From positions 8,032,001 through 8,096,000 of the forward strand of contig NZ_CP022203.1 of assembly GCF_002305895.1 (NCBI RefSeq): a stretch of DNA of 64,000 nucleotides, read 5' to 3'. The position numbers and the translations under genes are program-made. Numbering within the stretch: the stretch's first letter is position 1; every line of letters begins with the position of its first letter. The DNA comes from Corallococcus macrosporus DSM 14697 (GTDB lineage: Bacteria; Myxococcota; Myxococcia; Myxococcales; Myxococcaceae). Shown here piece by piece: positions 32,978 to 34,055 of the stretch. Under the pieces are notes generated by a model. That model searched no databases. It was not told the origin of the DNA and saw only the letters and a list, made by a program, of their open reading frames with translations.

Positions 32978-33514
32978 TCAGTAGATACCCTTTACGGGAA
33001 TATTGAGGAGCGGGTCCCACCCCTCGACGTCGGGCCCAACGGGCGCATCCCTCCCTCTGACGCCATAAGTGACCGACACATAAATCAATGGAGGACGGCC
33101 TTCCTTGATTTCATACTGAGCGCAGCAGAGCTGTAGCCACGCGGCACCGAGCCGCCAGTCATGGCAGCGCCGATGCATCCCCCCGTACAGTGGGATGTGC
33201 GGCTTCAGACTCCGTGGCGCGCCGAAGTCCCGCTCCAGGTACCGACGGACGCTCCCCAGCGCCTCCGAACAACTCCCCTCCCGGAACGTGGCAGTCGCGT
33301 CGACGCGATGGAGCTCACCTTTATCCGTGAACGAGGATATGAGATGGGCCTCGTAGTTCCCCAGGGAGACCTTGTTCCCGAGCCTCCCAACCTCTTCGCG
33401 AGTCATCGCAGGGTGCAGTCGCGCAAAGACAGACTTTTCCGCCGCCACCAAGGTCGTGACCATCAGAAGAGCAGCAACGCCAAGGATTCTCGTGGCACAG
33501 CGCCGTGCAGACAT
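32978..33514 (-). CDS. Small secreted hypothetical protein upstream of the toxin gene
   Basis: 178 residues from an ATG with GAGG close upstream (MSARRCATRILGVAALL). The signal peptide seems to end at VAA. The mature protein (VFARLHPAMTREEVGRLGNKV, NYEAHLISSFTDKGELHRVDA, CSEALGSVRRYLERDFGAPRS, WLQLCCAQYEIKEGRPPLIYVS) resembles small periplasmic proteins with a SmpA/BamE-like 'G.t.eeV' opening. It lies 86 bases ahead of the toxin gene on the same strand. An accessory (SitB-like) role is possible but I cannot show it. Confidence 0.7.
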   Translation of the reverse strand: MSARRCATRILGVAALLMVTTLVAAEKSVFARLHPAMTREEVGRLGNKVSLGNYEAHLISSFTDKGELHRVDATATFREGSCSEALGSVRRYLERDFGAPRSLKPHIPLYGGMHRRCHDWRLGAAWLQLCCAQYEIKEGRPPLIYVSVTYGVRGRDAPVGPDVEGWDPLLNIPVKGIY

Positions 33515-33631
33515 CGAAGCCTCTTGCCCGCATAGGTCGAACCTCATCCGCGCGACGCGGGCGCGTCGCAAGGTCGGACCGCCCCTCACTCGCGCCCAGC
33601 ATCGCACGAAACGACAGCGGCAATCTGCCCG

Positions 33632-33868
33632 CTACCGCCCCAGCACCTTCGCCACCGCGTCCACCACCTCGTGGTCCGTGGGAAATGCGAGTGATGCCTT
33701 CCGGATGACGACCTTGCCATCCACGGCGACCTCGTAGCTGCCCGAAGGGCCTGGCAACAACACCGCCTCGACATCCAGCTCATCCTTCAACGCGGCCGCC
33801 GCACGGGCGGCCCGAGGCCTGTAGCCTCAAGCGGTACAGTAGGTAATCGTCACCTTCGGGTCGGCCAT
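33632..33868 (-). CDS. SelW/Rdx-family selenoprotein (in-frame TGA = selenocysteine)
   Basis: Read from the ATG at 33868 (AGGAGG six bases upstream), the frame gives MADPKVTITYCTA, then TGA at 33829-33827, then GYRPRAARAAAALKDELDV and so on to DHEVVDAVAKVLGR and a TAG. With TGA read as selenocysteine it is a 78-residue Rdx (SelT/SelW/SelH) protein with the CxxU redox motif (Cys11, Sec14), the family's LPGPSGSYEVAVDGKVVIRK core and a complete C-terminus. The fold is thioredoxin-like and implies a selenol-based redox role. Ordinary gene finding would miss it because neither half alone is a gene. A nonsense mutation in a Cys form is the alternative. Confidence 0.8.
33794..33829 (-). promoter_or_regulatory. 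Candidate bacterial SECIS hairpin after the TGA
   Basis: In the mRNA, 20 bases after the UGA, GCCGC-CCGU-GCGGC can form a five-pair stem capped by a four-base loop containing GU. Extra pairing GG/CC is possible below a bulge. Bacterial SECIS elements are short hairpins at about this distance from the codon, with a G in the apical loop read by SelB. The stem is GC-rich by default in this genome, so structure alone is weak evidence. Confidence 0.5.
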
Positions 33869-34055
33869 GGCCATCCTCCTCACGTGAGCAGGGCACACAG
33901 AATGCGCGCCCCATGAACCAGACATAGTGCGCGCCAACACCACACGCCACCCCGCCTGCTCACCCGCCCCCTTTTATCAAGGCTTCTCCGCACATCCGGT
34001 AACGGACGAAGGGGTTATTCCGCCCTCTCACCGACGCGGCTACGGTCCCCATGCC

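Follow-up and report, generated by a model that had tools for sequence, protein, structure and literature searches.

A putative SelW-like selenoprotein gene with a conserved in-frame UGA and a predicted bSECIS hairpin in a myxobacterial genome

The minus strand of the window, i.e. of the complete 64,000-nucleotide stretch of DNA analysed here, almost certainly contains an intact gene for a SelW-like selenoprotein of the Rdx family, with selenocysteine (Sec) predicted at residue 14. The sequence data argue very strongly for the insertion of Sec at the in-frame UGA. This reading of the codon had been proposed in an initial annotation and is now supported by the Sec genes of the host, the conservation of the codon, a hairpin in the mRNA and the selection acting on the frame. 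The relevant features are the following:

33632..33868, minus strand: selW-like selenoprotein gene; 78 codons plus TAG, with one in-frame TGA that most probably encodes selenocysteine
33827..33829, minus strand: TGA codon at residue 14 of the protein, within the redox motif C-T-A-U; predicted selenocysteine codon, with the same codon in relatives
33875..33880, minus strand: Shine-Dalgarno-like AGGAGG, 6 bases 5' of the ATG
33794..33812, minus strand: putative bSECIS hairpin in the mRNA; 7-bp stem GGCCGCC/GGCGGCC, loop CGUGC, 21 nt from UGA to loop

The gene product and its predicted fold

The frame starts with an ATG at 33868, contains the TGA at 33829-33827 and ends with a TAG at 33634-33632. 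Coordinates, strand and sequence of an Rdx frame with an in-frame TGA had been given in the initial annotation and were confirmed. With the TGA represented by U, the translation reads MADPKVTITYCTAUGYRPRAARAAAALKDELDVEAVLLPGPSGSYEVAVDGKVVIRKASLAFPTDHEVVDAVAKVLGR. The AGGAGG at 33880-33875 precedes the ATG by the six bases that had been described. A second ATG adjoins this motif; the start that is kept in relatives is the one at 33868, and the genus relatives contain an AGGAG-like run followed by ATGGCCGA at this site. The locus lies within 8.03-8.10 Mb of a single-contig genome of 8.97 Mb with an estimated completeness of 100%.

For profile searches, the in-frame TGA was read as a residue. The protein matched Pfam Rdx (PF10262) with 47.8 bits (E 1.7e-12, cut-off 22.6) over positions 1-73 of the 74 positions of the model, and NCBIfam TIGR02174 (CXXU_selWTH) with 44.3 bits (cut-off 34.2). 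Since these matches exceed the cut-offs and cover nearly the whole model, the family assignment is far beyond chance. Membership in Rdx/SelW is indicated both by a profile match above the curated cut-off and by a CxxU motif following strand 1. In the host genome, the selW gene is the only match of PF10262. The NCBIfam model NF041051 (SelTWH_Campy, SelT/SelW/SelH family (seleno)protein) is matched by 40 of 40 aligned members with E values down to 4.9e-28; the window protein scores 64 bits, which is below the model cut-off of 88. An Rfam search of the window gave no match.

An AlphaFold2 model of moderate confidence (mean pLDDT 74) consists of a strand, a helix, three strands and a helix. The sequence C11-T-A-U14 follows strand 5-11, and C11 and U14 are located at the first strand-helix junction. 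Foldseek matched the model to solved Rdx/SelW structures with TM values of 0.71-0.85, and a profile search against solved structures gave E values of 1e-7 to 3e-17, with 1e-7 for mouse SelW. In profile and fold, the window protein is thus similar to mouse SelW (PDB 2npb) and to the bacterial Rdx proteins 3dex, 2fa8, 2oka and 2obk. In 3dex, a Cys occupies the position that is aligned to U14. Mouse SelW is translated by means of a eukaryotic SECIS in the 3'UTR, whereas the window gene has its putative bSECIS directly downstream of the UGA.

According to established bacterial Sec decoding, SelB carrying Sec-tRNA would recognize the hairpin just 3' of the UGA, and selenocysteine would be inserted at residue 14 in place of termination. 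The protein would then fold like SelW into a thioredoxin-like structure, in which C11 and U14 lie where strand 1 ends. Judging from its family, it is most likely a small cytosolic thiol/selenol oxidoreductase, whose redox cycle may proceed via a C11-U14 selenenylsulfide that is reduced by glutathione or thioredoxin. An interaction of SelW with glutathione has been reported (PMC1088965).

Sec-decoding machinery and conservation of the UGA codon

The initial annotation had tied its reading to the presence of selA, selB, selC and selD, and all four were found in the genome, which hence has a complete Sec-decoding trait. The matches scored 545 bits for selA, 386 bits for selD, and 283 bits over the N-terminal part of selB, which lies in an ORF of 638 amino acids; tRNA-Sec (selC) has the anticodon TCA and scored 69.8 bits.

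An Rdx gene was found in 74 of the 96 genomes of the family, and the main copy of each contains exactly one internal stop, which is a TGA. After extraction and alignment, this TGA occupies the same codon in 68 of 68 distinct family genes, which span about 20 genera and display no other disabling change. The same codon is also a TGA in 15 aligned genes from the wider phylum. In the relatives, which had been suggested as a test for a pseudogene and for U or C at this position, the frame is therefore intact apart from the shared TGA. A Rdx gene occurs in 99 of the 195 genomes of the phylum set, and only in G110 and G151 is the sole copy of the Cys-type; both genomes are devoid of a strong tRNA-Sec (defined as more than 60 bits). 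A strong tRNA-Sec is present in 92 of 97 genomes with a TGA-containing Rdx gene versus 46 of 98 others (phylum set; Fisher p 2e-14, with relatedness ignored). The five remaining TGA-Rdx genomes are drafts with a completeness of 74-97% (G049, G083, G114, G116, G125), and G049 has a full-length selB match. No Rdx copy was seen in 22 of the 96 family genomes, which indicates that SelW is probably dispensable.

Two Cys-containing variants were noted along the way. G046 encodes tandem SelW genes (L089, G046:C44:127685-128259), a UGA copy followed by a Cys copy (FYCVTC) with the exchange at the same position. The Cys-type SelW gene of G151 (L098) still contains GGUCU where the bSECIS loop would be expected, but another fold is now more favourable than the stem; this remnant may be the relic of a Sec version that was lost.

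Selection on the frame and the bSECIS hairpin

Among 27 genes of the genus, dN/dS is 0.34 before the TGA and 0.28 after it. Purifying selection thus continues downstream of the codon, which means that this part is translated and constrained; both a pseudogene and a simple stop codon are ruled out by this constraint. Codons +1 to +12 have a silent divergence of 0.088, four-fold lower than the 0.367 of codons +13 to +63. The Arg codon at +8 is CGT in 58 of 68 genes and otherwise exclusively CGG, although among 123 Arg codons located further downstream only 3 are CGT. Codon +7 is GCC whenever it encodes Ala, and codon +9 is GCG whenever it encodes Ala.

Folded alone, the hairpin has an energy of -14.5 kcal/mol. 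Published rules for bSECIS elements specify a loop of 3-9 nt, an upper stem of 4-16 bp, a distance of 16-37 nt from the UGA, a minimum free energy of at most -7.5 kcal/mol and a G within the first two loop positions (PMC13188914). The hairpin agrees with all of them, having a 5-nt loop with a G at position 2 followed by a U, 7 bp, a distance of 21 nt and the above energy. The commonest loop pattern has in addition a pairing N1-N2, which is described as "mostly" present and is not required (PMC13188914); it is not found in the genus loop CGUGC, which has C and C. In an alignment of 44 distinct sequences, compensatory changes occur in five of the seven stem pairs, 91% of the stem cells pair, and loop position 2 is a G in all 44. 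The observed covariation was reached by none of 500 shuffles, and slid structures scored far lower. For example, the silent third positions of the Ala codons +6 and +10 covary: C-G, U-A and U-G are present and C-A never occurs, so that GCC is combined with GCG, GCT with GCA or GCG, and GCC with GCA is absent. RNAalifold on its own recovered no more than the inner four of the seven stem pairs. Compared to the loop CGUGC in the genus of the window gene, several outgroups contain GGUCU; where Gly-Leu codons form the loop, stem and loop remain at the unchanged place. The putative bSECIS adds independent RNA-level evidence for Sec, a point that goes beyond the initial annotation.

Fresh pseudogenes typically look like this, with a single stop in a frame that is intact in all other respects, and the gene might accordingly be taken for a Cys-type Rdx gene that was inactivated by a nonsense mutation from TGC or TGT to TGA. 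A recent lesion is hard to reconcile with a TGA that is fixed in every aligned family gene across so many genera, and with purifying selection that goes on behind it; the probability of this explanation is negligible. Low-level readthrough of UGA is known in bacteria, and the codon might be read as Trp or Cys by a near-cognate tRNA, or act as a programmed stop, with a peptide of 13 residues as the product. Neither variant accounts for a covarying hairpin at the distance of a bSECIS, for the co-occurrence of the UGA with tRNA-Sec, for the replacement by Cys only where a strong tRNA-Sec is missing or in an extra tandem copy, or for protein-level selection on the downstream codons. We therefore regard them as very unlikely. 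Both the pseudogene and simple readthrough were rejected on the grounds of conservation, selection and the hairpin.

It might be argued that the hairpin is no RNA signal and merely a by-product of Ala and Arg codon usage in GC-rich DNA. The helix does encode an Ala-rich stretch, and some shuffles of the same composition fold about equally well (z -2.0). However, codon usage does not explain why synonymous third positions covary with the pairs kept, why the four-fold drop in silent divergence is confined to the hairpin region, or why the loop has a fixed rare codon for Arg. Moreover, outgroups with Gly-Leu in place of Arg-Ala retain the place of stem and loop with GGUCU loops. A mere by-product is thus extremely improbable, and a Sec codon followed by a bSECIS is the preferred explanation.

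Known SelW-like proteins, a further candidate and gene neighbourhood

SelW-like proteins (PF10262) with a CxxU motif are an already known family of bacterial selenoproteins (Zhang 2006, PMC1794560), and in a 2026 review it appears among the high-confidence predictions (PMC13188914). The window gene is a well-supported further member of this established family. Its product shares fold, length, the CxxU motif and the UGA-encoded residue with the bacterial SelW-like selenoproteins described (PMC1794560, PMC1088965, PMC2398784, PMC13188914), and, like these, the gene is accompanied by a downstream bSECIS and bacterial Sec machinery. It differs in its host, which is a predatory soil myxobacterium; myxobacterial SelW is unmentioned in the same four sources. 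The 2006 survey assigned 11 selenoproteins to Anaeromyxobacter, none of them SelW-like (PMC1794560). A literature search for selenoproteins in myxobacteria or Myxococcus, which left most subscription journals outside its range, found nothing relevant. The gene would add a conserved selenoprotein to Myxococcus, a well-studied aerobic, predatory and developmental model genus, in which Sec decoding appears to be retained under selection. Gene callers for which UGA is always a stop would misread selW, and the SelW-like family is often overlooked by gene finders. The occurrence of Sec versions, Cys versions and absence among close relatives offers a natural system for the study of SelW function in bacteria.

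The host genome (G000) was scanned for TGA in Rdx, one formate dehydrogenase model and AhpC/TSA, and the count of selenoproteins is therefore a lower bound. No TGA is present in the one formate dehydrogenase match listed for G000, which is weak (233 bits) and below the family cut-off. A further candidate of 163 residues, unlinked to selW, resembles a ResA/TlpA-type lipoprotein (G000:C1:4014351-4014839, minus strand; L129:952-1440). It contains the motif WAPG-U-HAC (UxxC), with the TGA at the first Cys position. The ResA-like gene was found in 26 of the 96 family genomes, 23 of them with and three without the TGA. The one stop-free version that was read, from G051, has a Cys at the TGA site, and this genome has no strong tRNA-Sec. 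A conserved hairpin, CUCGGG-AGUUG-CCCGAG, is located 16 nt after the UGA. Genomes without SelW, such as G022 and G024, possess the ResA-like gene together with tRNA-Sec, which helps to explain the persistence of the machinery there. It is conceivable, albeit rather doubtful, that a loop specific to the Myxococcaceae lineage (CGU or CGG for GGUCU) co-evolved with SelB, and that the machinery is kept for very few thiol-redox selenoproteins (SelW and the ResA-like UxxC lipoprotein), with no Sec-containing formate dehydrogenase in this genome.

The gene neighbourhood of selW, considered in the window and in another genus, gave no consistent functional hint. Within the window, selW is flanked by a divergent gene for a pyridoxal-dependent decarboxylase, and an ORF without Pfam match lies directly downstream (32978-33541, minus strand). 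In the other genus (L011:737-1498, L007), a gene similar to TauE/SafE sulfite exporters is located upstream and ends at the start of selW, which suggests that the two genes form an operon there.
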